Assembly: GCA_032622095.1 (NCBI GenBank)
Contig: CP136064.1
Location: 3,220,280 to 3,284,279 of the forward strand
DNA: 64,000 bases
From: Siphonodentalium dalli
Taxonomy: Eukaryota > Mollusca > Scaphopoda > Gadilida > Siphonodentaliidae
Direction of reading: 5' to 3'
In this document: piece by piece, positions 11,028-56,551 of the stretch
Layout of the letters: every line of letters starts with the position of its first letter
How positions within the stretch are numbered: the first letter of the stretch is position 1
Translations under genes and position numbers: made by a program
Notes under the pieces: model-generated
Told to the model about the DNA's origin: nothing
What the model saw: the letters and a program-made list of their open reading frames with translations, nothing else
Database searches by the model: none

Positions 11028-11334
11028 TCGAATTTTCTCCTATTACTTTAAAATTTTGATATTCTATATCTTTACAATCTGTGACATTCTGTGTTAATCT
11101 GTTATGTGACTTGTTACATGTATATTACATGTATACGATGTATTCCTGTTTTGTATCTATACATGTACATGTAGGTTGTCCAACACCAATATGTGGTTTA
11201 AAGACCATTAAAACGTATCTTATCTTATTTTATCTCTCTTAGCCTACATGTAGCTTCATTAATTATTTTGTATATGGCCAAAATTGCACAACGTTCAACA
11301 ATATTCCCGTATCGGACAGACCATAACTCTTTGT

Positions 11335-11352
11335 GGTCACTTGTCTGTGACC
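11335..11352 (+). promoter_or_regulatory. Inverted GGTCAC/GTGACC site in the leader
   Basis: GGTCAC, six bases, GTGACC: a perfect palindrome resembling nuclear-receptor half sites, in the roughly 190-bp leader conserved upstream of every zinc-finger start (also 28129-28146, 39580-39597, 51005-51022). The conservation may only reflect recent duplication. Confidence 0.25.
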
Positions 11353-11428
11353 TAATATTTCTTTTTGTTTTAAAATACTTTCATGTGAAGCAGCTTCAAA
11401 TCGCAATCGCATTAAATAAAACTGTACT

Positions 11429-13597
11429 ATGGCTATGTCAGCAGGACCACTGGCAACACACAATAGGATTCACACTGACGATCGACCGTATCAGTGCGAT
11501 ATATGTGAGAAAACATTCACTGCAGCGGACGCCCTGACGCAGCATACTTTAATTCACACTGATGATCGCCCGTATAAATGTGATATTTGTATAAAATCAT
11601 TCACACGGTCAAGATATTTGACTTTACACAAGAGAATTCACACTGGCGATCGACCGTATCCGTGCGATATATGCGAGAAATCATTCACTCAACCAAGCCA
11701 CCTGGCAACGAATAAGAGAATTCACACCGGAGATCGCCCGTATAAATGTGATATTTGCGAGAAAGCATTCTCTACAGTGAACGCCCTGACGAGACACAAG
11801 AGAATCCACTCTGGCGATCGACCGTATCGGTGCGATATTTGCGAGAAAGCATTCACCCAATCAAGCCACCTGGCAACGCATAAGATAATCCACTGCGGTG
11901 ATCGCCCGTATAAATGTGATATTTGTCAAAAATCATTCACCCAGTCAGGAAATTTGTCTGCACACATGAGAATCCACTCTGACGAACGACCGTATCAGTG
12001 TGATATATGTGTGAAATCATTCACCCAGTCAAGCAGCCTGGCAACGCATAAGATAATTCACTTCGACGATCGCCGGTATAAATGTGATATTTGTCAAAAA
12101 TCATTCACACGGTCAGGAGATTTGACTGTACACGTGAGAATCCACTCTGGCGATCGACCGTATCAGTGCGATATATGCGAGAAATCATTCACTCAATCAA
12201 GCAACCTGACGAAACATAAGAGAATTCACATTGGAGATCGACCGTATCAGTGCGATATATGTGAGAAATCATTCACTAAATCAAACCACCTGACGAAGCA
12301 TAACAGGATTCACACCGGAGATCGACCGTATCAGTGCGATATATGTGAGAAATCATTCACTCATTCATCCAACCTGACGAGACACAAAATGATTCACATT
12401 GGCCATCCATGAACCGTATCAGTGCGATATATGTGAGAAAGCATTCACTCAGTCTGGCCACCTGACGACACACAAAATGATTCACATTGGCCATCGACCG
12501 TATCAGTGCGATATATGTGAGAAATCATTCACTCAGTCATGCCACCTGACGACACATAAGAGAAATCACACCGGAGATCGACCATATCAGTGCGATATAT
12601 GCGAGAAATCATTCACTCAGTCAGGCGCCCTGACGACACACAAAAGTATTCACATTGGCCACCACCGACCGTATCCGTGCGATATATGTGAGAAATCATT
12701 CACTCATCCATGCCACCTGACGACACATAAGAGAATTCACACCGGAGATCGCCCGTATACATGTGATATTTGCGAGAAAGCATTCTCTATAGTGAACGCC
12801 CTGACGAGACACAAGAGAATCCACTCTGGCGATCGACCGTATCGGTGCGATATTTGCGAGAAAGCATTCACCCAATCAAGCCACCTGGCAACGCATAAGA
12901 TAATCCACTGCGGTGATCGCCCGTATAAATGTGATATTTGTCAAAAATCATTCACCCAGTCAGGAAATTTGTCTGCACACATGAGAATCCACTCTGACGA
13001 ACGACCGTATCAGTGTGATATATGTGTGAAATCATTCACCCAGTCAAGCAGCCTGGCAACGCATAAGATGATTCACACTGGAGATCGACCGTATCGGTGC
13101 GATATATGCGAGAAATCATTCACTCATTCATGCGCCCTGACGACTCATAAGATAATGCACACCGGAGATCGCCCGTATAAATGTGATATTTGCGAGAAAG
13201 CATTCACCCAATCAAGCCACATGGCAACGCATAAGATAATCCACTTCGACGATCGCCAGTATAAATGTGATATTTGCGAGAAATCATTCAGCACGTCAGG
13301 ATATTTGACTAAACACATGAGAATCCACTCTGGTGATCGACCGTATCAATGTGATATATGTGAGAAAGCATTCAACAAGCAAGCAACCTGGCGACGCATA
13401 AGATAATCCACTTCGACGACCGCCCGTATAAATGTGATTTATGTCATAAATCATTCACCCAGTCAGGAAATTTGACTTCACACATGAGAATCCACTCTGG
13501 TGATCGACCGTATCAGTGTGATATATGTGAGAAATCATTCACTCATTCATGCAATATGACGACGCATAAGATAATTCACTTCGACGACTGCCAGTAG
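11429..13597 (+). pseudogene. C2H2 zinc-finger array, unit A, three frames
   Basis: Starts MAMSAGPLATHNRIH after the shared leader. Frame 1 (11429-12412) has 11 fingers and stops at GHP because of a 4-base insertion near 12406. Frame 2 (12399-13406) has 12 fingers and is lost by a 1-base deletion near 13373. Frame 3 has two more fingers and ends HFDDCQ at TAG 13595-13597. In all about 25 fingers; finger 3 has Asn for the first His (LATNKRIH). The segment 11731-12060 is repeated at 12746-13075, so half the array arose by an internal duplication of about 12 fingers. Unless very short products function, this copy is a pseudogene. No effector domain is seen. Confidence 0.85.
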
Positions 13598-14016
13598 CAT
13601 AACGATTATAAGAGAATGCACTCTGGTGATTGACCGTATAAATGTGATATTTGTCAAAAATCATTCACCGATTCAAACAGTATGACAGAGCATAAGAGAA
13701 TCCACTCTGTTGATGGCCGAGAAAGCATCAACTCAATCAAGCGACCTGAAGAAGCATCACTTTGACGACCGTCCGTTTAGATGTGATATTTATGACAAAT
13801 CATTCACCTTGTTGGGACCATTTACAACACACAGGTGTTCGTCCGTATGAGTGCGATATATGTCCGAAAGCATTGACTACAGTAGGTGCCATGGCGAGGC
13901 ATAAGTTAATTCACACTGGTGATCGACCATATAAATGTGATGTTTGTGACAAATCATTTCTGCTGTCGGCAAATTTGACTGTTCACAAACAGATTCACAA
14001 TGATGAACGACCGTAA
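13598..14016 (+). pseudogene. Decayed finger tail, unit A
   Basis: Remnants of further fingers in several frames. The last two, CDICPKALTTVGAMARHKLIH and CDVCDKSFLLSANLTVHKQIH, keep all zinc ligands and end at TAA 14014-14016. In units B to D the second of these has KYDVC (first Cys lost) and a frame slip, so unit A preserves the older state. Confidence 0.75.
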
Positions 14017-14110
14017 CTTATTACAATGTATGTCTTCTTTTGATTTTGCAAATACTATGGTATACTGAATCCTGTGAACATACCACACACTCTAAATAAC
14101 ACTTACTTAA

Positions 14111-14436
14111 GCTGAAGGGGTCACTCTCACCAAAAAAAGTGTTGAAGGGTACACAGGATTTTCAAAATGTGCTGAAGGGTACACAGGGTTTGAAATGTTA
14201 TTCTTAAGGACTTTCAGGCTTCGTATCTGCCATGATTTATGTTAATGAATAATTGTTTTCGTTCCAATGAATATCAAAATGTACTGAAAACAAACTGCTA
14301 GTGGGTGCCAGACTTTCATAAACACAATTTAAGTAATGGTGTTCGTACCGATCACAAACCCTGTGTACCCTTCAGCCCATTTTCAAACCATGTGTACCCT
14401 TCAGCACTTTGTTTGGCGAGAGTGACCCCTTCAGCT
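14111..14436 (+). mobile_element. hAT-like MITE, unit A, uninterrupted
   Basis: 326 bp flanked by the perfect 8-bp TSD TTACTTAA (14103-14110, 14437-14444). Terminal inverted repeats GCTGAAGGGGTCACTCTC with two inner GTGCTGAAGGGTACACAGG repeats per end. Lacks the nested insertion present in units B to D. Confidence 0.85.
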
Positions 14437-14491
14437 TTACTTAATGTTATACAGTAGATACCGGTATGTATTTAGTTAAAATTTTAGTTAA

Positions 14492-15007
14492 AAGTGGATT
14501 ATCTCTAGGTAAACATGTATCATATGGTTACCGGGTGTAAAATATTAGATCTGAATCGAAGACTCCTGTCCGGAAATGCTTCTAACGATTAATATTCATT
14601 TTATTTCGAATATTTTCTAGTTTAAAAATGTGTGGTTATTTAGCTAACGAACAATAGTGGTTACTGTCAACAGAGACCATAAATTTTATGGTGTAATTTT
14701 GTCACAAATAAACATTAATTATACTCATTATCGCTTATGACTATGGAATAAAACAATACAACCACTCAATCTTGGGAATTTGACGTTCGGTACATAGCCA
14801 TATGCATAGCTTAATGCTCTATGGCGCTATATAGTATCACCCGAATGGTTCTAAAAATAGACAAATAAACGGTCCCAATAAAATATTATAAATAAAATCA
14901 ATATTAATTGATAGAAGCCTTTCGGGACAGGGGTCTTTAGTTCATATTTATTATTTTATACCCACGCAACTATATCAAATGTGTTATTTAAAAGAGATAA
15001 TCCATCA
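14492..15007 (+). mobile_element. TTAA-TSD MITE, unit A
   Basis: 516 bp between TTAA at 14488-14491 and 15008-15011. Imperfect terminal inverted repeats of over 100 bp, starting AAGTGGATTATCTC and TGATGGATTATCTC. No open reading frame. Nonautonomous. Confidence 0.8.
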
Positions 15008-15188
15008 TTAATTTCACACCGTCGACCCGTGAAAGAGAATCGGCTTGAATCCAATACTGTGGTGTTATAACTAAATTCGTGTTACTATATTTTAGTCTAT
15101 TTTTAGACCAATCAAATGACATCGGGACGTTCATTAAACGTTTCGTTCGTTTCAAAACTTCCTTAATAAATTTTGTTTTTTAAACTTT

Positions 15189-15368
15189 ACTTCGTTCATT
15201 AAACTTCGTTCTTCATTCATTAATCTTCGTTCTTCGTTCATTGAACATCGTTCTTCGTTCATTAAACTTCGTTCTTCGTTCATTAAACTTCGTTCTTCAA
15301 ACTTCGTCCATGGTTCAATAAACTTCGTTCTTCGTTCATTAAACTTCATTCTTCGTTCATTAAACTTC
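15189..15368 (+). repeat. TTCGTTCATTAAAC minisatellite, unit A
   Basis: About nine units of 20-21 bp (AACTTCGTTCTTCGTTCATT), ending at CTTCTAGAGG where the foldback element starts. An inverted remnant is at about 723-790. Confidence 0.85.
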
Positions 15369-15369
15369 T

Positions 15370-18300
15370 AGAGGAAGCTAGTCATGGAATGGTTAAACTA
15401 CCCTTATGGAGCCCCTCACAGACGTGAGCAGACAACACTCCGCAATACAAACTGCCATCTGTATGGGGCTCCATACATGAAGCTAGTCATGGAAGGGTTA
15501 CGCCCTTAAAGATATCACTCCCTGGCAAGTTACAGTAATGCCCAAATTAATCGTCCCCTTAACCACAGCTGAATTATGGGTAACTTTTCAGGATTTAGGT
15601 CTGGGCCGAGCCTTTGGCGAGGTCCAGACCTAATTTACTGGACGAGTTTTGTAATACCGCTATAAACTGGGGACGAGTTGTAGATTATATTTATTACATG
15701 ATCCAAAACGTCGACAATGCATACTTAAATCAGCACATGGGACACGAAACTAACATCGGCTTCTATAATGCATATGATGACGTTTCACGTAATTATTCAT
15801 TGTTTGCCAGCGTAAAGAAATAGTCCCAGATAAATAAAGACCTATTTGCGCATTTAATCGCGTATATTTAATGATATAACTTTTCAAACTCTTCATTGAC
15901 GGTAGTTTGTTGGAAGCCATCGTATTTTGAGACGTAGCGCACGGAATGTAAACAGACGACAAACCGGAAGTCAAAGGTCCCCTGTCACTATTTCCTGTTA
16001 TTAAACGAGCATTTAATATCACAATTTATAGAATGGGTTTATTGAATGGAACAAGGGTAGGATTATGTAATAAAATGTGATTTGGTCATTCAAACATTAA
16101 GTGGACCTTTAATATAAGAACCAATCTACATTCGCGTGCAATTATATCTCAATTTGATCTCAATTTGGGGAAAACAAAATCTTTGTTTTATAGAGCCCAT
16201 ATACAAAATGAGCAGGTGATGCCACAGTGTCCTGGGCCCACAAACAAGGTACCCCGCCTTGCTCACCGGAAGCTTATATTATGCTAATGATGAACAGACA
16301 GTCTGCCGTAGGAGCAGTTTTAGCCAGTCAAAAATAAAATTAGTGTAAATAAAATTGTAGAGAATCCTGAATATCATGAATTGATTACATGATGGTATAC
16401 ACTTACAAAGCCCAAAATTACAACTATAAATTCAACAACAGTCGTAGTCAGGTTATATTGTTTACATAAACATCGGAGGTGCCATTGTTGTTAGCGGGAG
16501 TTATCGGAATCCACCGAGATCGCATCGGGCGCATACATTCCTATATTTTACATATTTCCGCGTTATCATATGCGTATTTTACATATTAAATATAGTATAC
16601 ACAAATTATGGCATACAGGTGAGACATAAAAATCTCTCGCGGAAAACAGACGCAAACAGGCGGACGGGCGGACTGACTAAACGGCAGACATTGAATGTCG
16701 GCCACAAAACGTTATCCTACATTATATATTAAATATATGTATTAGCGTCTTTTATGCGTGCAATGAGTTGGACTGTTGGAGTCCGCAATATTTATAACAA
16801 TTAACGCTATTTAATTATATGCATATATGTGCGTGTTTACTTGCTTGTATTTGTGATGCCTGAAGTTCCCGTCTTTGTAAAACAAGTGCGTTTATCATGT
16901 ACGCATATACAAACCATAACCATTCATACTTGGGTATGAATGTTTCACTCCATATACTCATTAAAAGATATCAACATAGACAATTAATTATCGAATAATC
17001 CACACACTATCGTGGAAGGTTATTTCGTTTCTTTGACCAAGGGAGGTCCCGTTGTTTGATTACCTATAATTCCCGTATAAAAATAGATAACTCATAGATG
17101 AACCACTCTTTATATATAATGCAGTATAGCTTAACAGTCTGGGAAACAAAGCTGATACATGTAGTAAGCATTTTTACAAGATAAGACAACATGCGTTATC
17201 ATATATGTGTAATTTACATATTAAATATCGGTATACACGTACTAATGACATCAAGGTGAGACATACAAATCTATCGCGGAAAACAGACACAAACGGACGG
17301 ACGGGCGGACTGACTAAATGGCAGACATTGAATGTCGGCCACAAAACGTTATCCTACATTGTATTAAATATATAAGCGTATTATATGCGTGCATGGAGTT
17401 GGACTGTTGGAGTCCGCAATATTTATAACAAATAAAGCTATTTAAATTATATGCATACGTGCGTGTTTACTTGTTTGCATATTTTGGGGCCTGGAGTTCC
17501 CGACTTTGTAAAATAAGTGCGTTTAACATGTACGCATATGCAAACCATAATCATTCATACTTGGGTATGAATGTTTTCACTTCATATACTTATTAAAATA
17601 TACCAACACTGAAAATTTTCAATTATCGAATTATCCACACATTATCGTGGAAGGTTATTTCGTTTCCTTGACCAAGGGAGGTCCCGTTGTCTGATTACCG
17701 CGGTACCCATAAATCCCGTATAAAATAAATCATAGATAAACCACTCTTTATGTAATGCAGTAGCTTTGGCTATACATGTAGTAAGTATCTATATATCACA
17801 CGACAACTAGTCTATTTTATATCTGTCATGATATATAGGGCTGTTGTCAGTAAGTAATTAAATTACAAACCTATACATATGATATGGTAAACGCTCTTAT
17901 GGAGCCCCTCACAGACGTGAGCAGACAACACTCCGCAATACAAACTGCCACCTGTATGGGGCTCCATACATGAAGCTAGTCATGGAAGGGTTACGCCCTT
18001 AAAGATATCACTCCCTGGCAAGTTACAGTAATGCCCAAATTAATCGACCCCTTAACCACAGCTGAATTATTGGTAACTTTTCAGGATTTAGGTCTGGGCC
18101 GAGCCTTTGGCGAGGTCCAGACCTAATTTACTGGAAGAGTTTTGTAATACCGCTATAAACTGGGGACGAGTTGTAGATTCTATTTATTACATGATCCAAA
18201 ACGTCGACAATGGATACTTAAATCAGCACATGGGACACGAAACTAACATCGGCTTCTATAATGCATATGATGACGTTTCACGTAATTATTCATTGTTTGC

Positions 18301-19272
18301 CAGCGTATTTTGAGACGTAGCGCACAGAATGTAAACAGACGACAAACCGGAAGTCAAAGGTCCCCTGTCACTATTTCCTGTTATTAAACGAACATTTAAT
18401 ATCACAATTTATAGAATGGGTTTATTGAATGGAACAAGGGTAGGATTATGTAATAAAATGTGATTTGGTCATTCAAACATTAAGTGGACCTTTAATATAA
18501 GAACCAATCTACATTCGCGTGCAATTATATCTCAATTTGATCTCAATTTGGGGAAAACAAAATCTTTTTCGATACAGAAATATTGAAAAAAAATGTTTAA
18601 TGAGGCTTTTAAAAAGAAAATGCCAGTGTCGAGGGAGGTCTGAGAACACGGAACTGTTATCTATTTGGTACTTCAGTATAGAAATGGTTGAAGTCGGTCT
18701 ATCAGAATACAGGAAATATAAAGTGAAAACATCACAATAGGAAATATTTTTAACTAATTTCTTTTCTTGAACTGAGACTGAAAGTATGTTTTTTTTTTTT
18801 AAATATTAACTTGTTGTTTAGTGTTAAGTTTAGTTGTAATGTATATTTTTTTTCGAATGAAAAGCTGTTTTCTAAAATGTGAATTATGGGTGTGTACCAT
18901 GTACAGTAATGCTCTAAATAATCGACTCCTTAACCACAGCAGAATTATGGGTAACTTTTCAGGATTTAGTCGGAAATATGGCTTGTTGCCATTCATCTCC
19001 CCGAGAGCTTTCCGTTGAATGGCAACAAGCCATATTTCCGACTAAATCCTGAAAAGTTACCCATAATTCAGCTGTGGTTAAGGGGTCGATTAATTTGGGC
19101 ATTACTGTAACTTGCCAGGGAGGGATATCTTTAAGGGCGTAACCCTTCCATGACTAGTTTCCTGTATGGAGCCCCATACAGGTGGCAGTTTGTATTGCGG
19201 AGTGTTGTCTGCTCACGCCTGTGAGGGGTTCCACAAGGGTAGTTTAATCCTTCCATGACTGGAGCTTCTCTC
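15370..19272 (+). mobile_element. Foldback element with long TIRs, unit A
   Basis: The left arm (about 15370-15605) and right arm (about 19040-19272) are inverted copies of one sequence containing CTAGTCATGGAA, ATGGAGCCCC and GCTGAATTATGGGTAAC. The left arm plus adjoining sequence occurs a second time in direct orientation at about 17890-18560. The interior copy lacks about 110 bp between two CGTA tetranucleotides, a microhomology deletion. A hairpin with arms of about 95 bp sits at 18907-19110. A short frame (RVVD-YYMIQNVDNAYLNQHMG) recurs in every copy but is not recognised and has no supported start. No transposase is seen; the ends show no clear TSD. Confidence 0.7.
16545..17770. repeat. 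Two tandem 637-bp repeats inside the unit A foldback
   Basis: The segment containing GACGGGCGGACTGACTAAA, GAATGTCGGCCACAAAACG and TTGGACTGTTGGAGTCCGC occurs at about 16545-17180 and again at about 17190-17770, offset 637 bp, with substitutions and small gaps. Only unit A has it. Confidence 0.8.
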
Positions 19273-20084
19273 AATTTTCTGAAAACGCTGTGTCAATACA
19301 TTCTCTTATTTTTGCGAGTCTCCCATAGGGATCCTCGAATATATAAGAATACACTGGCCTAACAATAATTACCTTGACATTGTATGTCAGTTCATTCTCT
19401 TATATTTGCAATGATCCCTATGCGAGACTTGCATATTAAAGGAAATGCACTGGCACATTTCAATGCTGTTATTCTATGGTACTGGTATAATAATATTGAT
19501 TTCTAGGCAGCCTGGGTGGGGGCCATGTTTGAGGTAATGGGGAGGGAGAGTAGAGGGGTGGAGTTTTTAGCGTTACATCAATCAAAATTTGAACAGTTGA
19601 AAATGTCATGCCTTAGTTGTAGATTAGATGTTCACACCATAAAATTGCATGCCTGATACAACATTAGAAGTAGATTTTCCAATATTACTTTCTTAATCAC
19701 CACTTATCCAGGTGAATTCTTGCCCTTATTTTCAAAGAAAAATGGGGGGGGGGTATATTGTTTATGGGGGGGGGGTATATTGATATTACTATATGAATGG
19801 ATCTCATAGTTGGGGATTCACCAGGGTTGGCGCTGGACCATAATTTTCTCTTGTCAAAATATTTGCCAAATAATTTTTTTTTTGCCAAATGAAATGTTTT
19901 TTAGCCAAATGAATTTATTTTTTTTGCCAAATTAAATTGAAGGTCAAATTAGGGAAAATTAATGCAAATTAGCATTTTTATCTTGATTCATATAAAACCT
20001 AATGATCTAAAAGACACAGGTAAAATACACAATAATTTAAATACATGTAATTTTGATCAACTAGAAGTATTTTTATATATATCA
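19273..20084. other. Unit DNA without a gene
   Basis: Shared with units B and C. It contains an imperfect inverted pair of CATTCTCTTATATTTGC type at about 19297-19450, G runs at about 19745-19775, and four TTTTTGCCAAAT units at about 19865-19945. The weak minus-strand frame at 19697-19888 is not credible. Confidence 0.5.
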
Positions 20085-20504
20085 TTTATTAAATATTAAT
20101 TAATCTTTATGTGAAAGAGTGATTTGGGGCTAACCCCGGGATTGTCCTTCTTGATGTCATTATGTTTTTGTTTTATATCATTATCTTTTTTTAAATCATT
20201 AAATATTTATATTTGTGAAAACATCTAAGTGACATCTGGAAACTAATAACTTAATATTGTTATGCCATTATCAAATTACAATCTGTCATAAAAGCGTGCA
20301 TATTATTTTGACTGTATCGGTATTGACGACAAATAGCCACAAAATATATGTCGTGATTCAAATTTTGCTGATTAAGCTATTGTCTTACACTTGGTGCTCA
20401 TAAACCTCGACCGTCATAAATACAATGTCATCATAAACATACATTGTGCAGGAGCCCCGTGAGTGACCAGACAGACAGTGGGGGATTAGGGGATTAATTG
20501 TAAA

Positions 20505-20672
20505 ATTATGACATTTTGCTGTTTCGTGCAGAGTGACGTAATCGTTCTCCAGATCACAGTAGCCTGTTACGAACAAATTGCTTATACTGACGTCAATGCA
20601 CACTTTACAAAACATTGCTTTCTTCACTTTGTCATAATTCAACCACGGTCGGTTTAATGTCCATGCGTTTTT
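20505..20672 (-). pseudogene. TTF/BED-type zinc finger of a hAT-like gene, fragment
   Basis: The minus strand reads RPWLNYDKVKKAMFCKVC, then FVTGYCDLENDYVTLHE and AKCHN. This matches the N-terminal zinc finger of hAT-related, DUF4371-type proteins (WL-YD--K-AMFC--C ... G ... H). About 55 residues are preserved, then the similarity stops. No transposase core follows. Recognition is from motif memory, not a search. Confidence 0.5.
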
Positions 20673-20853
20673 GAGTGTCCGTCTTGTGAAAACTAAAGAT
20701 GATGCTTGGTTGATAGAGTTGTCGATCGGGTTTCCCTTTATACTGTCCAGGATTGGGTTTCCCTTTGTACAGTTGGTGATATATTCCCACTTTCGATGTT
20801 TCGGACTAGATTGTTCACATCACAGAATTGAAAACCCACTTGCCAAAATTGTG

Positions 20854-22147
20854 TCATAAACTATCAAGACGAAATGCTAAATCTACTCAAAGAGTGGTGA
20901 TGGAACATCAAGTACCACAAAAGGATTCCTCGTATTTGACATCAAGCATTCTGTCAGCTCTGGGTAAGCTTTTCAGGCATACCAAAATGTTTGATTACCC
21001 TTACCAAAGAAAAAGGAAGTAGAGTCGCATCCTTATATCGCATGGAAATGATGGTATATTGGAAGCACCGTTGAATTTTCTGAGCCCATTGAATTGTACA
21101 TATCAACTATGTTGCAGAAAGCATGGAATTTAGACTTGCCGAGAGACACATTTTCAAATCTTTGCATTGGAGTAGCATAGCATGGAGACGTCACAACAGA
21201 ATCACGACAATATCCTTGTCAACAGTACGAACAATAATCGATGAATGAGCATATGAGATATATGTCCGGCTAAGCTACTGTCAGCTTCGAAGATGGTTTC
21301 CCCTGTTATGGTTTCCAATTTAAAGAGACATTCATTGACCAATGCAAACAATTCTTGCTTGTTGGTGGTATTTCTTAGAAAGTCATTCCAATTCGGTGGA
21401 ATTTTGTAATAAGCCACCAATTTACATCAAATCCCACAACCACGTTTATCTCGCGTTCCTGTTTTGATACTGTCCTCTATTTACCTGTCCAAGTCAATTA
21501 TTCTATAATCTGCGAGTTGCATCATAACATATGGAATAAACGTTATGCTGATATACATTAGAATGTGTGCCCGACTTCGGGTGGCAGTAAGTGTATCAGA
21601 ACACCCCGTCGAACACCTTACACTCGACCCTTGGCTTTAGTTCTGCAGTTTCTATGTCGTTTGAATCGGATGGGACCTTCGTGTAGCTTAAGAAGTCACA
21701 TTTATTACCACCCCTCCTTTCGCACACGCTGGTTTTCGTGTGAGAAGAGCATATATTTCTTACGCTACAAACCGATTATTCATCGATTATTGTTCGCACT
21801 GTTGATACATATATGCATGCTATTCTTCAATGCAAATATTTGAAACTGTTTGTCTTTTGACAAGGCTAAATCACATGATGCCTACAACATAGTTGATATG
21901 TGCAATTCAATTGTCTAAACAAATTCAACTGCACTTATATTCAACTGTACCAATATTCCATCCGATATCAGGATAAGACTCAACTTCCTTTTTCTTTGGT
22001 AATGATAAGCGTAATTTTGGGATGCTTGGAAAGCGCCCATGCCTCACAGAATGCTTGATGCCAATTGCGAGGAATCCTTGTGTCGTACTTGATGTCTCAT
22101 CACCACTATTTGGGTGTATTTAGCGTTTCGTCATGATTGTTTATGAC
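20854..22147. repeat. Large inverted repeat with 370-390 bp arms
   Basis: 20854-21246 and 21778-22147 are inverted, imperfect copies, with landmarks GGATTCCTCG, CATCAAGCATTCTGT, TACCAAAGAAAAAGGAAGT and AACAATAATCGATGAAT. The spacer is about 530 bp. The minus strand of the right arm reads IPRNWHQAFC--W--- and ITKEKEVESYPDIGW in one frame, so the arms may derive from a coding sequence that is not recognised. Confidence 0.75.
21202..21420 (-). pseudogene. Fragment of a transposon-associated invertebrate gene
   Basis: The minus strand encodes AYYKIPPNWNDFLRN and TTNKQELFALVNECL, resembling the P-NW--FLR---NK-ELF block of an uncharacterised protein family common in molluscs and cnidarians. About 50 residues match; the rest runs into the inverted repeat. 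There is no methionine of its own. The assignment rests on a remembered motif. Confidence 0.35.
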
Positions 22148-24281: not shown

Positions 24282-24292
24282 ACACTGACGAC

Positions 24293-30461: not shown

Positions 30462-30516
30462 TTACTTAATATTATATAGTAGATACCGGTATGTATTTAG
30501 TTAAAATTTTAGTTAA

Positions 30517-42906: not shown

Positions 42907-42961
42907 TTACTTAATATTATATAGTAGATACCGGTATGTATTTAGTTAAAATTTTAGTTAA

Positions 42962-43477
42962 AGGTGGATTATCTCTTTGTAAACATGTATTATATGGTTA
43001 CCGGGTGTAAAATATTAGATCTGAATCGAAGACTCCTGTCCGGAAATGCTTCTATCGATTAATATTCATTTTATTTCGAATATTTTCTGGTTTAAAAATG
43101 TGTGGTTGTTTAGCTAACGAACAATAGTGGTTACTGTCAACAGAGACCATAAATTTTATGGTGTAATTTTGTCACAAATGAACATTAATTATACTCATTA
43201 TCGCTTATGAGTATGGAATAAAACAATACAACCACTAAATCTTGGGAATTTGACGTTCGGTACGTAGCCATAGGAATAGCTTAATACTCTGTGTTGCTAT
43301 ATGGTATCACCCGAATGGTTCTAAAAATAGACAAATAAATGGTCCCAATAAAATATTATAAATAAGATCAATATTAATTGATAGAAGCCTTTCGGGACAG
43401 GGGTCTTCAGTTCATATTTATTATTTTATACCCGCGCAACTATATCAAATGTGTTATTTAAAAGAGATAATCCATCA
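42962..43477 (+). mobile_element. TTAA-TSD MITE, unit C (shared copy)
   Basis: Orthologous to 30517-31032, TTAA at 42958-42961 and 43478-43481. Confidence 0.8.
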
Positions 43478-43592
43478 TTAATTTCACACCGTCGACCCGT
43501 GAAAGAGAATCGGCTTGAATCCAATACTGTGGTGTTATAAACGTTTCGTTCGTTTCAAAACTTCCTTATTAAATTTTGTTTTTAAAACTTTA

Positions 43593-43751
43593 CTTCGTTC
43601 ATTAAACTTCGTTCTTCATTCATTAAACTTCGTTCTTCGTTCATTGAACATCGTTCTTCGTTCATTAAACTTCGTTCTTCAAACTTCGTCCATGGTTCAA
43701 TAAACTTCGTTCTTCGTTCATTAAACTTCGTTCTTCGTTCATTAAACTTCT
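43593..43751 (+). repeat. TTCGTTCATTAAAC minisatellite, unit C
   Basis: Same array length as unit B. Confidence 0.85.
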
Positions 43752-45284: not shown

Positions 45285-48029
45285 AATTTTCTGAAAACGC
45301 TGTGTCAATACATTCTCTTATTTTTGCGAGTCTCCCATAGGGATCCTCGAATATATAAGAATACACTGGCCTAACAATAATTACCTTGACATTGTATGTC
45401 AGTTCATTCTCTTATATTTGCAATGATCCCTATGCGAGACTCGCATATTAAAGGAAATGCACTGGCACATTTCAATGCTGTTATTCTATGGTACTGGTAT
45501 AATAATATTGATTTCTAGGCAGCCTGGGTGGGGGCCATGTTTGAGGTAATGGGGAGGGAGAGTAGAGGGTGGAGTTTTTAGCGTTACATCAATCAAAATT
45601 TGAACAGTTGAAAATGTCATGCCTTAGTTGTAGATTAGATGTTCACACCATAAAATTGCATGCCTGATACAACAGAAGTAGTTGTAGATTTTCCAATATT
45701 ACTTTCTTAACCACCACTTATCCAGGTGAATTCTTGCCCTTATTTTCAAAGAAAAATGGGAGAGGGGTATATTGTTTATGGGGGGGGGGGGGGTATATTG
45801 ATATTACTATATGAATGGATCTCATAGCTGGGGATTCACCAGGGTTGGCGCTGGACCATAATTTTCTCTTGTCAAAACATTTGCCAAATAAATTTGTTTT
45901 TGCCAAATGAAATGTTTTTTAGCCAAATGAATTTTTTTTTTTGCCAAATTAAATTGAAGGTCAAATTAGGGAAAATTAATGAAAATTTGCATTTTTATCT
46001 TGATTCATATAAAACCTAATGATCTAAAAAACACAGGTAAAATACACAATAATTTAAATACATGTAATTTTGATCAACTAGAAGTATTTTTATATATATC
46101 AGGATAAGACTCAACTTCCCTTTTCTTTGGTAATGATAAGCGCAATTTTGGGATGCATGGCAAGCGCCCATGCCTCACAGAATGCTTGATGCCAATTGCG
46201 AGGTATCCTTGTGTCGTACTTGATGTCTCATCACCACCATTTGAGTGTATTTAGCGTTTCGTCATGATTGTTTATGACAAATCTGTGAACCTGACCTCAG
46301 TTAACGAAGCTAGACATAAATTGTTCAGGACTTGAACATATTCCAACAACGAGGAACATGCTCTTGCAACATGAAAGTCGTGATATATATTATCTGGACT
46401 GTAAGCCCCATAGTAGTTGGAAAGTTTCCAGCACCTGACTTCTTTGGATGGAAATTGATTGACGGTTCTTTTGTTCCTGTATGAATGACAATCCAGAATG
46501 CGGCTAGAGAGTGCACAGAGTTGATTAAATGTGTTTGCAAATCGGTTTGTTCCCGGTGCAAATGTTTAAAAAGCAAAACGTCGATGTATGAAGTTGTGCA
46601 GATGTGGTTGTGAGAGGGAATTGTTCAATTCTGTTTATTTTAAACAAAGTGCATTTTAAAATTTACGCATTCATCTTCCCACCACAGCACCCCCTGGAGT
46701 TTTTCCCAGCAACAATAGTATGCACAAGATTACACATATACATGCAATACATTGCAATGATGTACATATTATTGAATCTGGGCTATATTCAAGGGTGCCT
46801 TTCATTCCCGCTTGCGTTCGCATGATTGTTTCATGTTCTGTTGCTGGAATAATTCAGGACACTATATATGTTACAAGGAAACAATATGATTTCTTATTAC
46901 GACCTCAAATATACTTTCGAGTATACTCTTCAATCCTTTTGTGTATAATTGGACATATCAACTGAATTTAAATACTGGCAATTTTAATACGAGTCTCGAT
47001 GATGAAGATATGTTGCAGAATACCTTCCATGTGTTCTTGTTTTGTGAACCAAATTGAATCAAATAATCAACATATTGTTTATATCTTCTCTTATATTATC
47101 TCGAAAATTGTAAAGTATTTAAACAAAAATAAGGCAAAAACCGAATATTTTCATGTTTTGGTCGCCATTTTGGCACCCATCTTCAACAATTGTGGCCATT
47201 TTTCAACTAAAAGTGGGGGCTGTTATTCTACAACAACCATTCTTAGATAATATGGTGGAATTCGTTATGTTTAACATATCAAATTGAGAAGCAAAACTAT
47301 TAGGTGTACCACCGTCAAAACGGCTGCCATCTTGGACGCCATCTTGAATTTTCGTTTCTACGTCGGTCAAAAAGTTGGTTCTTGAGAAAATTCCTAGACT
47401 AGAGATGCTGTCCTACAAGATATTTAAAAATGGCGCTTTTATCCGACTTGTATTGATCAAAACGCTAACTATCTTCACTATAGGTTGTCCTACACCAATA
47501 TGTGGTTTAACGACCATTAAAACGTATCTGATCTTATCTTATCACTCTCACATACACATGTATCTCTTCCGGTGATCATGTGAGCGGTTGGAAGCAACTT
47601 TTTCTCGCTCCGTCATTTTGGTAAAACTTTTGTCAAAAACATCTCTTATCAGATGGATTTCTAGAGAGGACCACGACTAGTCGCCCCCAGAGTGTTCTCC
47701 CAAGACAACAGCTGGAGTGGTTGAATCGCGGCTCGTGTCCATCTGGCGAAATTTAGATACATCACGTTTACATTTTTTGACATTTCGTTTACCTTCACTT
47801 GGATCTCGAAACCGACGAGAACCCACGAGACGCCATCTTGGATCTTCTTGGAACCAGGAAGTGAATTTTAAACTTTTAACTTTTATAACTTTTAACCTCA
47901 CAAATTCGAGAATTACTGTGTATATACAACTATGAACATATCATCATCAGATTTTACTGAACTTTTTAAATGAATTACCGACGAGACTGTTTTCCTCTAT
48001 GACAGAAATTGCCTGAAATATTATTTATC
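45285..48029. other. Unit DNA without a gene, unit C
   Basis: Matches unit B 32849-35602, including the deletions relative to A. G run at about 45780-45793. No gene supported. Confidence 0.55.
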
Positions 48030-50590
48030 ATGATAAACTCAACTGTGGTATTTGTTTATTTCATATGGACTTTCGGTCAAATCTGTTTCCCCATTGACCA
48101 GTCTTCAGTGATACACGAAGATGATAACATCATAAATACCGAGAAGATTAAGATATTATGGACAAAATTAAACTAAACACTGACGACATGGGCATGATAT
48201 CAGCCATCCATAAAACTTTTATATCAGGGACAACTACCATTCCCACCACCCCTGTGAAAATGGATCTGGAAGATGCCGGTATATCATAAGACTACTGATG
48301 TTGATATCGGCCGATATTCACACCAATCCTGGCCCTATAAATGAGAAGACTAAAACAAAGAGGATACCTAAAAACCCGTGTACGTCCTGCGGAAAAAAGC
48401 GTCATCAAAACGACTGCGATGCCTGTAATAAATGAACTCATATAAACTCATATATGGCAAGTTGTAATATGTCTTTGGAAAAGTATAATTTACTACAGGA
48501 AGGGATGATTGACTATAATTTTATGTGTACAGCATGTCTTATCAAACAACTGCCACTTGACTACCATCGATATGATACTCACAATAGCATCGGTAACAAA
48601 TCACATGAATGCTTTATAAGTAAAGGTCTTAAATTAATTCATCTTAATTGTCAAAGTATTTTGCCGAAAATAGATGAGCTAAAGTTTTTTGCCATAACCT
48701 CCGGAGTACATATTATGGCTTTCTCCGAGACCTGGTTAGATGACTCAATCAGTAATTCAGAAATAGACATACCTGGTTTTTCAATTGTCCGCAAAGATCG
48801 TGATAGACAAGGCGGTGGACTCTGTCTCTACATCCACCAGTCTATCTCTTTCAATGTGAAGACAGAGTGGAATACCTCGGACATGGAATTATCTTGGCTT
48901 CAAATTTTATTACCAAAATCCAAACCCATTCTTGTCGGGGTGGCATGTCGGCCTCCTAAATTGTCAAATTCTATAACGAACTGGAAAAATTTGGTCTTGA
49001 ACATGATTTTATTGATAAAGAAACCATAATACTTTGTGACTTCAACATAAATCAATCAGACAGTTACAAGAAAACTTGTTTTCTCAACAAGAATGTTAAC
49101 GCTTTTAAATGACTATTTAGCCTCACCCAGATAATTACTGATTTTACAAGGATTAGTCCAACCAACCTCATCCTCTCAGATTGATTTGATATTTGTTTCT
49201 GACAAAGACAACATATCACACTCAGGGGTTTATGATGTTGGTCTAAGTGGCCATAGTATGATTTTCTGCATCAGAAAAGTGAAGAAAGAATCACTTGGAA
49301 ATGGTATATACAAACCGATTAAATTTCGATATACAAAAGATTATTCACCTGATGGATTTTTATCCAAACTCCAGATTATGGACTGGTCTCAAGGGTCATG
49401 TTGTCAGGATGTCAATAAATCCTGGACAATCTTTAAAGATATGTTAGTATCATGTATTGACTGTATTGCACCATTAAAAAATGTCAGGGTCAAACAGAAC
49501 TCAGCGGACTGGATTGATGGAGAACTTTTGGGGTTCATTAGGGAAAGCGAAGCTGCTCTAAAGAAATATAGAAAATCAAAAGCCCTAAATGATTTTGAAA
49601 CTTTTAAATTCCTTCGGAATAAAGTCCAACATCTGACAAAAAAAGCTAAAGTTTCTTACATTCAGGATCAAATTGAAGAACACAAAAATGACTCTAAGTC
49701 TCTCTGGAAATCTCTCCACAACCTCGGCACACCTTCAAAGTCAAGCAAAACTGTGAGCAATATAACATTGAAAATTGACGGCAATATATGCTTTGATAAA
49801 CTACAAATTGCTCGTAAATTCAACAACTTCTTCAGCCAGATAGCAGTTGATTTGGTTATCAAACTACCCAAAGCACCTGGTATCTTTAAAGAAAAGTTTC
49901 TGAATAAATTTTATGCCAACTAGATCCATGAAGATGGTTTCTCATTTAAGGAAGTGACGGAAGAAGATGTTTAAAAATCATAATGAGTTGCTCTCCATCC
50001 AAAGCCACTGGCCCTGACACGATACCGGCAACATTCTTGAGAGATGGCGCTGCCGTTTTATCACAACCATTGAAATATATCATAAATTTATCTATTTGCA
50101 ATGGTGAAATTCCTGAAGACATAAAGAGGGCTAGGGTGGTCCCCATATACAAGAAGGGCGACAAGTTGACATCTGGAAATTATCGACCTATCTCTGTACT
50201 AAACCTAGCATCTAAAGTTCTTGAACGCCTGATGTATAACCAAATGGAAAGTTATCTGGAATCTTACAACCTTCTGTACAAGTACCAATCAGGATTTCGA
50301 CCAGGTTTTTCAACAGACACCAGTATCTTGTACTTAACCGACCTTATAAGGAATCAATTTGATAAAGGCAATTTAACTGGTATGATTTTCATTGACCTAC
50401 AAAATGCCTTTGATACGGTTAACCATGAAATACTCTTAACAAAGCTAAAAACTCTTGGTCTTAATAACATCACCCTATCATGCTTCAACTCTTACCCGAA
50501 AGGAAGAACTCAGGCTGTGGATATTCAGGGCACATTATCTGAATTTGAATCCGGTGTCTCACAAGGTTATTTCTTAGGACCATTACTATT
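48030..50590 (+). pseudogene. CR1-like LINE, copy C, least decayed RT
   Basis: Signal-like frame 48030-48176; 2A-like DIHTNPGP at 48313-48336; endonuclease 48454-49029; linker 49186-49923 (five or so substitutions against copies A and B); RT 49983-50590. The RT frame is continuous through SGFRPGFST, FIDLQNAFDTVNHEIL, SYPKGRTQAV and GVSQGYFLGPLLL because it keeps GATAAAGGCAATTT and TTACCCGAAAGG, which are shortened in A and B. It is still cut before the ADD box by the MITE at 50591. Confidence 0.85.
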
Positions 50591-50896
50591 GCTGAAGGGG
50601 TCACTCTCACCAAAAAAGTGCTGAAGGGTACACATGGTTTGAAAATGTGCTGATGGGTACACAGGGTTTGAAAATGTGCTGATGGGTTCACAGGTTTTGC
50701 GATCGACACGAACACCATTACATAAATTGTGTTTATGAAAGTCTGGCGCCTGTTAGCAGTTTGTTTTCAGTACATTTTAATATTCATTGGAACGTAAACA
50801 ATTACTCTCTGACAGAAATCATGGCAGATACGAAGACTGAATGTCCTTTATAATGACATTTCAAACCCTGTGAACCCTTCAGCACATTTTGAAAAT
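50591..50896 (+). mobile_element. Second hAT-like MITE, without nested hAT
   Basis: Left terminal repeat intact, right one missing as in A and B. Contains the empty target ATATTCATTGGAACG at about 50780, where A and B carry the 1-kb hAT element. Confidence 0.8.
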
Positions 50897-51107
50897 CCCC
50901 TCTCTCTCCCTCCCCTTAGCCTAGCTTCATTAATTGTTTTGTATATGGCAAAATTACACAACGTTCAACAATGTTCCCGTATCGGACAGACCATAACTCT
51001 TTGTGGTCACTTGTCTGTGACCTAATATTTCTTTTTGTTTTAAAATACTTTCATGTGAACATTGTGAAGCCGCTTTAAATCGCACTCGCATTAAATACAA
51101 CTGTACT

Positions 51108-52679
51108 ATGGCTATGTCAGGACCACTGGCAACACACAATAGGATTCACACTGACGATCGACCGTATCAGTGCGATATATGCGAGAAATCATTCACTCAA
51201 TCAAGCTACCTGGCAACGCACAAGAAAATTCACTTCGACGATCGCCCGTATAAATGTGATATATGTCATAAATCATTCACCCAGTCAGGAAATTTGACTT
51301 CACACATGAGAATCCACTCTGGTGATCGACCGTATCAGTGTGATATATGTGAGAAAGCATTCACTACAGCGGGCTCCTTGACGACGCATACGTTAATTCA
51401 CACAGGTGATCGCCCGTATAAATGTGATTTATGTATAAAATCATTCACCATGTCAGGAGATTTGACTTCACACAAGAGAATTCACACTGGAGTTCGACCG
51501 TATCAGTGCGATATATGCGAGAAATCATTCACTCAATCAAGCAACCTGACGACGCATAAAAGAATCCACTTCGACGACCGCCCGTATAAATGTGATATTT
51601 GTCACAAATTATTCTCTCACTCAAGCCACCTGGCTAGGCATGTGTTAATTCACACTGGTGATCGCCCGTATAAATGTGATATTTGTGAAAAATCGTTCAC
51701 CACGTCAGGACATTTGACTTCACACAAGAGAATTCACACTGGCGATCGACCGTATCAGTGCGGTATATGCGAGAAATCATTCACTCAATCAAGCCACATG
51801 GCAACGCATAAGAGAACGCACTTCGACGATCGCCCGTATAAATGTGATATTTGTCAAAAATCATTCACCCAGTCAGGAGATTTGACTGCACACATGAGAA
51901 TCCACTCTGGCGATCGACCGTATCAGTGTGATATATGCGAGAAATCATTCACCACGTCGGGACATTTGACTGAACACATGAGAATACACTCTGGCGAACG
52001 ACCGTATCAGTGCGATATTTGCGAGAAAGCATTCACTCTAGCAAGCAACATGACGAGGCATAAGATAATCCACTTCGACGATCGCCCGTATAACTGTGAT
52101 ATATGTCATAAATCATTCACCCAGTCAAGAAATTTGACTAAACACAAAAGGATTCATTCCGGAGATCGACCGTATCAATGCGTTATTTGCGAGAAAGCAT
52201 TCACTACATCAAGCGACATGACGAAGCATGAGAGAACTCACACTGACGATCGACCGTATCAGTGCGATATGTGCGAGAAATCATTCACTAAATCAAGCAA
52301 CCTGACGACGCATAAGAGAATCCACACCGGAGATCGCCCGTATAAATGTGATATATGTCATAAATCATTCACCCAGTCAGGAAATTTGACTGCACACATG
52401 AGAATCCACTCTGGCGATCGACCATATCAGTGCGATATTTGTGAGAAATCATTCACTAAATCAAGCCATGTGACGAGCCATAAGCGAATTCACACCGGAG
52501 ATCGACCATATCAGTGCGATATATGTGAGAAATCATTCACTAAATCAAGCCACCTGACGAAGCATAAGAGAATTCACACCGGAGATCGACCATATCAGTG
52601 CGATATTTGCGAGAAATCATTCACCCAGCCAAGCGCCCTGACGAAGCATAAGAGAATCCACTTCGACGACTGCCAGTAG
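51108..52679 (+). CDS. C2H2 zinc-finger protein, unit D, 18 fingers
   Basis: An intact 523-residue frame, the longest in the window. MAMSGPLATHNRIH is followed by 18 complete fingers and the common end HFDDCQ. All C-x2-C-x12-H-x3-H ligands are present. The scaffold is almost invariant (CDIC-KSFT, HK-RIH, GDRPY), while helix positions -1, 2, 3 and 6 differ in every finger. Likely a nuclear sequence-specific DNA-binding protein with a long binding site. No effector domain is seen in the exon. Compared with unit C it keeps the 110 bp lost there and has one extra finger (TTSGHLTEH, also found in unit B). Start choice as in unit B. Expression is not shown by sequence, but this is the best candidate for a working gene. 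Confidence 0.8.
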   Translation: MAMSGPLATHNRIHTDDRPYQCDICEKSFTQSSYLATHKKIHFDDRPYKCDICHKSFTQSGNLTSHMRIHSGDRPYQCDICEKAFTTAGSLTTHTLIHTGDRPYKCDLCIKSFTMSGDLTSHKRIHTGVRPYQCDICEKSFTQSSNLTTHKRIHFDDRPYKCDICHKLFSHSSHLARHVLIHTGDRPYKCDICEKSFTTSGHLTSHKRIHTGDRPYQCGICEKSFTQSSHMATHKRTHFDDRPYKCDICQKSFTQSGDLTAHMRIHSGDRPYQCDICEKSFTTSGHLTEHMRIHSGERPYQCDICEKAFTLASNMTRHKIIHFDDRPYNCDICHKSFTQSRNLTKHKRIHSGDRPYQCVICEKAFTTSSDMTKHERTHTDDRPYQCDMCEKSFTKSSNLTTHKRIHTGDRPYKCDICHKSFTQSGNLTAHMRIHSGDRPYQCDICEKSFTKSSHVTSHKRIHTGDRPYQCDICEKSFTKSSHLTKHKRIHTGDRPYQCDICEKSFTQPSALTKHKRIHFDDCQ

Positions 52680-53250
<571 letters not shown>

Positions 53251-53348
53251 ATAACTTATTACAATGTATGTCCTCTCTTGATTTTGCAAATACTATGGTA
53301 TACTGAACCGTGTGAACATACCACACACTCTAAATAACACTCACTTAA

Positions 53349-53998
53349 GCCGAAGGGGTCACTCTCACCAAAAAAAGTGCTGATGGGTACACAGGATTTT
53401 CAAAATGTGCTGAAGGGTACACAGGGTTTGAAATGTTATTCTAAAGAACATTCAGTCTTCGTATCTGCCATGATTTCTGTTAAAGAATAATTGTTTTCGT
53501 TCCAATGAATATCAAAATTTATTATATACTTGCCCATGAATTATAAGGTTTTAGCAACGAGATATAAGTGATATCCCACTAGTGAGATATAAGTGATATC
53601 CCACTGGTGAAATTTATGATGTATTGACATTCATTGGGGGCCATAGGCAAGTAACTAAAGTATATAATAAACAGAATACAATGTATCCACACTTTTTCAG
53701 TGGATATGGATTAAATTTCATTCGTGATGACAAAACATTTGAATTTCCACTCGTGGCTAAAGCCACTCGTGGAAATTCAATGTTTTGTCATCGCTCATGA
53801 GATATAACCCATATCCACTGAAAAGGTGTGGATATTTTCTATGTACTGAAAACAAACTGCTAGTGGGCGCCAGACTTTCATAAACACAATTTAAGTAATG
53901 GTGTTCATACCGATCACAAACCCTGTGTACCCTTCAGCACATTTTCAAACCCTGTGTACCCTTCAGCACTTTTTTTGGCGAGAGTGACCCCTTCAGCT
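53349..53998 (+). mobile_element. hAT-like MITE with nested insertion, unit D
   Basis: Orthologous to the unit B and C copies, nested 0.3-kb hairpin included. Confidence 0.8.
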
Positions 53999-54053
53999 TT
54001 ACTTAATATTATATAGTAGATACCGGTATGTATTTAGTTAAAATTTTAGTTAA

Positions 54054-54569
54054 AGGTGGATTATCTCTTTGTAAACATGTATTATATGGTTACCGGGTGT
54101 AAAATATTAGATCTGAATCGAAGACTCCTGTCCGGAAATGCTTCTATCGATTAATATTCTTTTTATTTCGAATATTTTCTGGTTTTAAAAGGTGTGGTTG
54201 TTTAGCTAACGAACAATAGTGGTTACTGTCAACAGAGACCATAAATTTTATGGTGTAATTTTGTCACAAATGAACATTAATTATACTCATTATCGCTTAT
54301 GAGTATGGAATAAAACAATACAACCACTCAATCTTGGGAATTTGACGTTCGGTACGTAGCCATAGGAATAGCTTAATACTCTGTGTTGCTATATGGTATC
54401 ACCCGAATGGTTCTAAAAATAGACAAATAAATGGTCCCAATAAAATATTATAAATAAGATCAATATTAATTGATAGAAGCCTTTCGGGACAGGGGTCTTC
54501 AGTTCATATTTATTATTTTATACCCGCGCAACTATATCAAATGTGTTATTTAAAAGAGATAATCCATCA
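54054..54569 (+). mobile_element. TTAA-TSD MITE, unit D
   Basis: 516 bp, TTAA at 54050-54053 and 54570-54573. Confidence 0.8.
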
Positions 54570-54683
54570 TTAATTTCACACCGTCGACCCGTGAAAGAGA
54601 ATCGGCTTGAATCCAATACTGTGGTGTTATAAACGTTTCGTTCGTTTCAAAACTTCCTTATTAAATTTTGTTTTTAAAACTTT

Positions 54684-54843
54684 ACTTCGTTCATTAAACT
54701 TCGTTCTTCATTCATTAAACTTCGTTCTTCGTTCATTGAACATCGTTCTTCGTTCATTAAACTTCGTTCTTCAAACTTCGTCCATGGTTCAATAAACTTC
54801 GTTCTTCGTTCATTAAACTTCGTTCTTCGTTCATTAAACTTCT
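54684..54843 (+). repeat. TTCGTTCATTAAAC minisatellite, unit D
   Basis: Same array as units B and C. Confidence 0.85.
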
Positions 54844-56375
54844 AGAGGAAGCTAGTCATGGAATGGTTAAACTACCCTTATGGAGCCCCTCACAGACGTG
54901 AGCAGACAACACTCCGCAATACAAACTGCCATCTGTATGGGGCTCCATACAGGAAACTAGTCATGGAAGGGTTACGCCCTTAAAGATATCCCTCCCTGGC
55001 AAGTTACAGTAATGCCCTAATTAATCGACCCTTTAACCACAGCTGAATTATGGGTAACTTTTCAGGATTTAGGTCTGGGCCGAGCCTTTGGCGAGGTCCA
55101 GACCTAATTTACTGGACGAGTTTTGTAATATCCGCTATAAACTGGGGACGAGTTGTAGATTCTATTTATTACATGATCCAAAACGTCGACAATGCATACT
55201 TAAATCAGCACATGGGACACGAAACTAACATCGGCTTCTATAATGCATATGATGACCTTTCACGTAATTATTCATTGTTTGCCAGCGTAAAGAAATAGTC
55301 CCAGATAAATAAAGACCTATTTGCGCATTTAATCGCGTATATTTAATGATATAACTTTTCAAACTCTTCATTGACGGTAGTTTGTTGGAAAGGTGTTGGA
55401 AGCCATCGTATTTTGAGACGTAGCGCACGGAATATAAACAGACGACAAACCGGAAGTCAAAGGTCCCCTGTCACTATTTCCTGTTATTAAACGAGCATTT
55501 AATATCACAATTTATAGAATGGGTTTATTGAATGGAACAAGGGTAGGATTATGTAATAAAATGTGATCTGGTCATTCAAACATTAAGTGGACCTTTAATA
55601 TAAGAACCAATCTACATTCGAATGCAATTATATCTCAATTTGGGGAAAACAAAATCTTTTTCGATACAGAAAATATTGAAAAAAATGTTTAATGAGGCTT
55701 TTAAAAAGAAAATGCCAGTGTCGAGGGAGGTCTGAGAACACGGAACTGTTATCTATTTGGTACTAAGGTATGAGTATTCAGTATAGAAATGGTTGAAGTC
55801 GGTCTATCAGAATACAGGAAATATAAAGTGAAAACATCACAATGGGAAATATTTTTAACCAATTTCTTTTCTTGCACTGAGACTGAAAGTATGTTTTTTT
55901 TTTAAATATTAACTTGTTGTTTAGTGTTAAGTTTAGTTGTAATGTATATTTTTTTTCGAATGAAAAGCTGTTTTCTAAAATGTGAATTATGGGTGTGTAC
56001 CATGTACAGTAATGCTCTAAATAATCGACTCCTTAACCACAGCAGAATTATGGGTAACTTTTCAGGATTTAGTCGGAAATATGGCTTGTTGCCATTCATC
56101 TCCCCGAGAGCTTTCCGTTGAATGGCAACAAGCCATATTTCCGACTAAATCCTGAAAAGTTACCCATAATTCAGCTGTGGTTAAGGGGTCGATTAATTAG
56201 GGCATTACTGTAACTTGCCAGGGAGGGATATCTTTAAGGGCGTAACCCTTCCATGACTAGTTTCCTGTATGGAGCCCCATACAGGTGGCAGTTTGTATTG
56301 CGGAGTGTTGTCTGCTCACGTCTGTGAGGGGCTCCATAAGAGTAGTTTAACCCTTCCATGACTGGAGCTTCTCTC
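54844..56375 (+). mobile_element. Foldback element, unit D
   Basis: 1.53 kb with inverted arms. The right arm is closer to the left-arm sequence (CTCACGTCTGTGAGGGGCTCC) than in the other units, so this copy has the best-matched termini. Confidence 0.75.
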
Positions 56376-56551
56376 AATTTTATGAAAACGCTGTGCCAAT
56401 ACATTCTCTTATTTTTGCGAGTCTCCCATAGGGATTCTCGAATATATAAGAGAATACACTGGCCTAATAATAATGACATTGACCTTGTATGTCAGTTCAT
56501 TCTCTTATATGTGCAATGACCCCTATGGGAGACTCGCATATCAAAGGACAT
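56376..56551. repeat. End of unit D with inverted ATTCTCTTATAT pair
   Basis: Contains CAATACATTCTCTTATTTTTGCGAGTC and, inverted, CTCGAATATATAAGAGAATACACTGG, then a second pair around ACCCCTATGGGAGACTCGCATAT. The same core forms the palindrome at 58510-58576. Confidence 0.65.

Follow-up and report, generated by a model that had tools for sequence, protein, structure and literature searches.

Zinc-finger families are among the fastest-changing transcription factors of animals, and in vertebrate KRAB and other poly-zinc-finger clusters change is concentrated at the contact residues, which occupy positions -1, 2, 3 and 6 of the zinc-finger helix. In this paper we describe a cluster of C2H2 zinc-finger arrays, together with the mobile elements that lie between them, in a stretch of 64,000 nucleotides from the scaphopod mollusc Siphonodentalium dalli (assembly GCA_032622095.1, contig CP136064.1, positions 3,220,280 to 3,284,279 of the forward strand), referred to below as the window. 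The closest described systems are the poly-zinc-finger clusters of other animals. Emerson and Thomas describe positive selection, gain and loss of fingers and short gene conversions in poly-zinc-finger families (PMC2604467). A mouse KRAB survey names helix positions -1, 3 and 6 as contacts. It reports that blocks of 2 to 7 contact triplets recur inside single genes, that signatures of high homology occur on the opposite strand as well, and that the clusters are enriched in some endogenous retroviruses (PMC5363842). Wells and others tie zinc-finger number to retroelements across animals and describe lineage-specific expansions, with the FiNZ-ZNFs of cyprinid fish and large zinc-finger numbers in molluscs and arthropods as examples; in zebrafish the FiNZ-ZNFs are under positive selection and occupy a chromosome arm rich in transposons (PMC10547256).

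An earlier model-made note on this DNA (hereafter the original prediction) stated that zinc-finger clusters are known to grow by tandem duplication, and the locus fits that published picture. Judged from the sequence, it is very probably (we put it at roughly 0.8) an ordinary tandem poly-C2H2 zinc-finger cluster that has grown by block duplication and unequal exchange. It resembles the vertebrate KRAB and other poly-zinc-finger clusters in its clustered duplicated genes, the gain and loss of fingers, the homologous signatures on the opposite strand and the signs of gene conversion between paralogs. It differs from the KRAB clusters in that no KRAB domain was seen in the scanned frames, in that reading of the array can start at an ATG that lies shortly before it within one exon, and in its linker, which is TGDRPY or SGDRPY where the usual zinc-finger linker is TGEKPY. 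The FiNZ-ZNFs are likewise poly-C2H2 arrays expanded without KRAB, but neither a FiNZ domain nor any other N-terminal domain turned up in the frames scanned here. A literature search found no description of this locus among the papers listed, many of them off topic, which is weak evidence. The accepted picture is left unchanged and the locus adds a fine-grained example to it: one 64-kb window combines a common junction, an orderable set of insertions, a sharply defined breakpoint of exchange and shuffling at the level of fingers, and the order of events can therefore be read and tested.

A self-alignment of the window, as the original prediction had proposed, finds large direct repeats. They form four units (A to D; Table 1), all in the same orientation, and the starts at 28021, 39472 and 50897 agree with the predicted spacings of 11,451 and 11,425 bp. 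In chained comparisons B and C are 98.8% identical over 8.9 kb and C and D 98.9% over 3.6 kb, which far exceeds chance, and A and B are 95.2-99.4% identical in direct non-array pieces with insertions between the pieces. In a 792-bp segment A differs from B, C and D by 3.7-3.9% and the latter three differ mutually by 0.4-0.5%, so that in this segment B, C and D are the youngest copies. The four-copy tandem amplification of the original prediction is real as a repeat; its copies are not equal, as there are two whole units (B and C), one enlarged to 16.8 kb (A) and one truncated (D), together with two further relatives, the inverted partial copy E and the short array F, that were omitted from the predicted extent (11225-56551). 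Nor does every copy hold the same ordered set, since D stops at 56558 and therefore has neither the long interspersed nuclear element (LINE) nor the junction element, and the sets of insertions differ among A, B, C and D. B, C and D have a common junction, in which a miniature inverted-repeat transposable element (MITE), here called M1, is cut in its right end and followed by a pyrimidine run ending in TTAG and then by CCTAGCTTC. The predicted identity of the junction base holds for these three; the 5' flank of A is different and matches the flank of F (261 bp at 93%). Four equal copies with one junction base are ruled out by the deviating A and D. Co-orientation of A to D and the junction of B to D are what tandem duplication of clustered paralogs leaves. 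The TTAG at the exon could be a splice acceptor, a weak reading because the sequence that precedes it in A and F resembles a repeat found also at 23666, 35048 and 47481. The tail of E is 92.7% identical to A and 93.9-95.1% to B (chained comparison), and this similarity to both leaves E and A without an order in time.

The common junction, the LINE stops and the insertion sites support the copying of a composite unit with the LINE and the MITEs already embedded in it. Nine stops of the LINE frame, all from relative position 591 on, occupy identical places in A, B and C (591, 612, 696, 1485, 1536, 1938, 1947, 2001 and 2010, with A offset by 1), so that the LINE was copied and not reinserted, and we infer that it was already dead before being copied. 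Upstream of 591 the LINE in A differs, and the LINE in C has extra stops of its own between 1545 and 1911. M1 interrupts the LINE at identical sequence in A and C. Each of the four units also has the 29-30-bp repeats of M1 in its tail, and the M1 ends in D make up inverted arms of 75 bp with 84% complementarity. The third LINE frame in C matches a reverse transcriptase domain (Pfam RVT_1, 7.3e-19, 49950-50624); the segment 48436-49029 has a weak match to DUF7078 only (0.079), 36009-36602 has no match in the PDB at E<=1, and one LINE frame gave three pattern matches to viral contigs, of which none was confirmed to be related. The LINE may resemble an apurinic-type endonuclease. It may instead be supposed that the LINE and the MITEs landed repeatedly at the same preferred sites beside separate zinc-finger genes, and the family of TTAA-flanked MITEs has indeed been inserted twice in C. 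This is hardly credible given that the breakpoints agree, that A, B and C have all nine LINE stops in common, and that B and C are 98-99% identical across both the elements and the intervening DNA, and for the LINE repeated independent insertion is ruled out by the common stops. The claim that these insertions are one event copied is borne out for the LINE and the common insertion sites, and does not extend to the copy-specific insertions.

The insertions that differ between the copies include one of 85 bp that B and C have and A lacks (D ends before that site), and two, of 1886 bp and 314 bp, that are found in A only. TTAA-type (piggyBac-like) MITEs are recognized by a TTAA target duplication and inverted termini. 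The element of C at 41362-41884 has a TTAA duplication as against an empty site in D, and termini AGGTGGATTATCTCTTT and AAAGAGATAATCCATCT with one mismatch, so that by its sequence it belongs to this type. The hallmarks of hAT elements are terminal inverted repeats starting with CAGGG and an 8-bp target duplication. A hAT-like insert of about 985 bp with perfect 13-bp inverted ends is present in A and B, with an empty site in C; TTCATTGG flanks it on both sides and six extra bases precede the right copy. Part of the foldback region occurs a second time in A (within 16185-18307), where 17896-18307, which follows 1.7 kb of unmatched DNA, matches B 31340-31752. In the region of a 0.5-kb insertion in E, a minus-strand frame (2422-2874) looks by eye like the C-terminus of a LINE reverse transcriptase and has no Pfam match at 0.1.

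A further question is whether the units were copied one after the other. Plain serial copying does not fit a mosaic unit B, an end of D that derives from a diverged lineage, and fingers that match across arrays including the inverted E. B is mostly C-like up to ~36.7 kb and A-like from 36.9 kb to near the junction, and the switch lies between 36,683 and 36,904. In B 33669-36890 (3129 columns) 28 sites group B with C (BC|A), 10 group A with B (AB|C) and two group A with C (AC|B); in 36904-38362 (1449 columns) the corresponding counts are 0, 19 and 1 (Fisher p=4e-8 for BC|A versus AB|C across the switch). Right of the switch A and B differ at 1/1459 positions, and in the hAT-like insert they differ at 1/975 and by a further 13 bases of length in simple runs. 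B and C differ there at 20/1457 positions versus 7/2498 in three segments just 5' (p=1.5e-4). Since the B-C divergence rises at the switch while that of A and C stays at 0.7-1.7% in all four segments around it, A is the likely source of the end of B. As the hAT-like insert lies within the A-like tract, it would most simply have reached B by exchange and not by transposition.

Such a sharp switch from C-like to A-like sequence would also be the product of a switch error, and on its right-hand side, if length changes are not counted, A and B differ at only 2/2434 positions. The whole repeat could then be an assembly artefact, in which haplotypes or near-identical copies were strung together, or one copy was switched for another, giving B its A-like end and inflating the copy number. 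We hold this to be improbable. The units differ in their arrays (10, 15, 18 and ~24 fingers), insertions and outer flanks, and B differs from both A and C at 17/3330 columns further 5', so that A to D do not simply represent two haplotypes of one unit or of two units, and false tandem copies made from collapsed haplotypes are unlikely for whole units. For the A-like end of B alone (the 36.7-39.4 kb switch) an assembly artefact could be the explanation; it is the most serious rival of our reading.

If the switch reflects exchange between A and B, then it may have been either a crossover or a conversion. The rarity of B-only sites on both sides of the switch (2/3129 and 1/1449) favours one unequal crossover that made B. 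Near the junction, 39418 and 39448 group B with C again, and judged from other M1 copies the B/C state at 39448 is suggested to be derived, which favours a closed conversion tract. Weighing against a single crossover are these two B=C sites, which do not suit it, and the 17 AC|B sites in 3330 columns further 5'. The ten AB|C sites are also located 5' of the switch, and A differs from B and C by ~3.8% further 5', so that the history of exchange had more than one step. At 31930-32429 six sites group B with D, a hint of further exchange, and at least six of the 17 AC|B sites are located here. At the other end of the cluster D differs from C at 17 sites in its final 250 bp (56,308-56,558) versus five in the preceding 900 bp, and given this jump the end of D also comes from another, diverged lineage.

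In A and B the arrays have changed more than the DNA around them. Poly-C2H2 proteins are defined by at least 3-5 tandem C-X2-C-X12-H-X3-H fingers with 7-residue linkers. The regular fingers number 10 in B, 15 in C, 18 in D and about 24 in A (decayed tail fingers are not counted for B and D). B and D belong to this family, with regular fingers of 28 residues in open frames, and the D frame matches Pfam zf-C2H2 in 18 stretches (1.5e-113). The arrays of B and D, with 10 versus 18 fingers, differ far more than their flanks: most blocks of the B array are 77-91% identical to C and D, versus 98.7% in the left flank of B, and the longest aligned pieces of the A and B arrays are 78-82% identical. The fingers of C follow the order of D without D11, and a 110-bp deletion removes D6 and part of D7 and breaks the frame.

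Single fingers seem to move between paralogs, the inverted E included. Finger B4 equals D11 at 84/84 positions, with a best match of 72 in C, and D7 is identical to F2 at 83/84 positions, with 64 in the next other array. Exact runs reach 211, 180 and 167 bp between A and E, 279 bp within A, 694 bp between C and D, and 164, 124 and 108 bp between B and D. At the divergence of the tails (92.7% alike), the 211-bp run of A and E has a chance of ~1.4e-4, and since the two arrays as wholes are just 85.6% alike, their identity is patchy, as exchange would produce. In F, near-identical 84-bp fingers (7681-8072, 4.7 copies, 97% matches) point to a recent internal expansion.

The changes in the fingers are not evenly distributed. 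Taking helix positions -1, 2, 3 and 6 as contacts, the eight best-matching finger pairs of B and D (B8 and B11 were omitted, having no close partner) give nonsynonymous to synonymous changes of 6:0 at contacts versus 1:6 elsewhere (p=0.005), with 6/7 of the amino-acid changes at DNA-contact positions. Within D, the ratio of nonsynonymous to synonymous differences per site (pN/pS) is 0.56 at contacts and 0.24 elsewhere. A constraint on the finger scaffold is clear; positive selection at the contacts, with an omega above 1, is suggested, not proven, and the contrast between contact and non-contact positions is significant. Twenty reciprocal-best pairs (78-83 of 84 positions identical) give 20:2 at contacts versus 24:23 elsewhere (p=0.001). 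Finger pairs were picked by best match, share members and are not independent; the twenty do not include C, whose array is nearly that of D, or any first finger, decayed finger or finger with a stop, and pairs with fewer than 78 or with all 84 positions identical were dropped. These features of the sample count against our reading. The 20:2 compares with roughly 3.6:1 expected from the B-D site counts. Where they can be aligned, C and D have arrays that are 98-100% identical and that differ little apart from lost fingers, so that rapid array change holds for A and B versus C/D and not for the C-D pair. No effector domain of the KRAB, SCAN or BTB type occurs among the 25 of 32 families listed for the D frame, nor in nine other scanned frames.

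A further possibility is that the locus is a decaying, satellite-like array, whose copies are passively multiplied and encode nothing useful. It would agree with the frameshifts of A and C, the missing start region of E, the stop in F and the decayed fingers of the tails. We consider it unlikely, as B has an open frame of 10 fingers and D one of 18, and non-contact positions are constrained (one nonsynonymous versus six synonymous changes between B and D, and the pN/pS of 0.24 within D).

A mechanism that would fit an ordinary growing cluster is that the duplicated block consisted of a zinc-finger gene with its downstream mobile elements. The founding junction, which joins the cut MITE (lying inside the LINE) to the pyrimidine run before the zinc-finger exon, would have arisen once and then been copied, with the dead LINE carried along. 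The paralogs may then mispair, with exchange through unequal crossover or gene conversion, a process that would add copies, bring the hAT-like insert from A to B, and also add, drop and move single fingers. B and D would encode predicted DNA-binding proteins of 10 and 18 fingers with a conserved scaffold and changing contact residues, as expected of regulators or of transposon repressors with shifting targets. It can be suggested, as a tentative and rather doubtful extension, that transposon copies multiply by hitch-hiking on paralog exchange, as the hAT-like insert would have done from its origin in A into B, and that this exchange swaps fingers between tandem and inverted arrays while selection retunes the contacts; the cluster would then be an engine for new DNA-binding specificities, fed by repeats that it may help to silence.

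Table 1. Features of the zinc-finger cluster, in positions of the window
Feature	Position	Strand	Description
E, inverted partial copy	739..4105	-	array and tail; array without start region
F, short array	7393..8129	+	4 near-identical fingers and one with a stop; 5' flank common to A
Unit A	11225..28020	+	16,796 bp; own 5' flank, A-only insertions; homology to B from ~11243-11251
Array of A	11429..13590	+	~24 fingers; frame lost after 327 amino acids; two frame breaks
A-only 1.9-kb insertion	20085..21970	+	minus-strand finger frame, zf-C17orf113 match 4.4e-7
hAT-like insert in A	26925..27907	+	matches B 38363-39358
Unit B, complete	28021..39471	+	10-finger array, decayed finger tail, MITEs, CTTCGTT minisatellite, foldback, LINE, junction element with hAT-like insert
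Open frame of B	28232..29131	+	299 amino acids, 10 regular C2H2 fingers, intact
~320-bp insert inside tail M1 of B	29982..30304	+	also in C, D; absent from A, E
Broken LINE in B	36009..38160	+	counterparts in A from ~24570, C from 48436; nine common stops; interrupted by M1
A-like tract in B	36904..39417	+	partner A ~25466-27966; includes hAT-like insert
hAT-like insert in B	38363..39358	+	13-bp inverted ends CAGGGGCGGCGGA; TTCATTGG at either side; counterpart at A 26925-27907; empty site in C
Unit C, complete	39472..50896	+	110-bp deletion, compared with D, shifts the array frame; array tail has an additional 523-bp element flanked by TTAA
Array of C	39683..41060	+	frame from matching ATG lost after 139 amino acids
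C-only MITE with TTAA duplication	41362..41884	+	523 bp, in array tail; 86% like 54050-54573 in D
Junction element of C	50591..50896	+	MITE M1 cut in right end beside pyrimidine run ending TTAG at array exon
Unit D, truncated	50897..56558	+	array, MITEs, minisatellite, foldback only
Open frame of D	51108..52679	+	523 amino acids, 18 regular C2H2 fingers, intact
Foldback in D	54854..56363	+	219-bp arms, 98% complementary
End of D	56296..56558	+	last 250 bp ~7% diverged from C; closes imperfect terminal-inverted-repeat element, 71-bp arms, 73%

Elsewhere in the window Rfam gave no match at the gathering score and ARAGORN, in its bacterial setting, no tRNA. Between F and A a frame with a YqaJ-like recombinase domain (1.2e-15) is located at 8881-9396. 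Beyond the end of D, a short hairpin element at 58510-58576 (32-bp arms, 94% complementary) resembles in its ends the element with which unit D terminates, and a large foldback at 60296-63544, with 540-bp arms that are 96% complementary, encloses inverted arrays of a degenerate 42-bp repeat, its GC skew swinging from +0.36 to -0.25.

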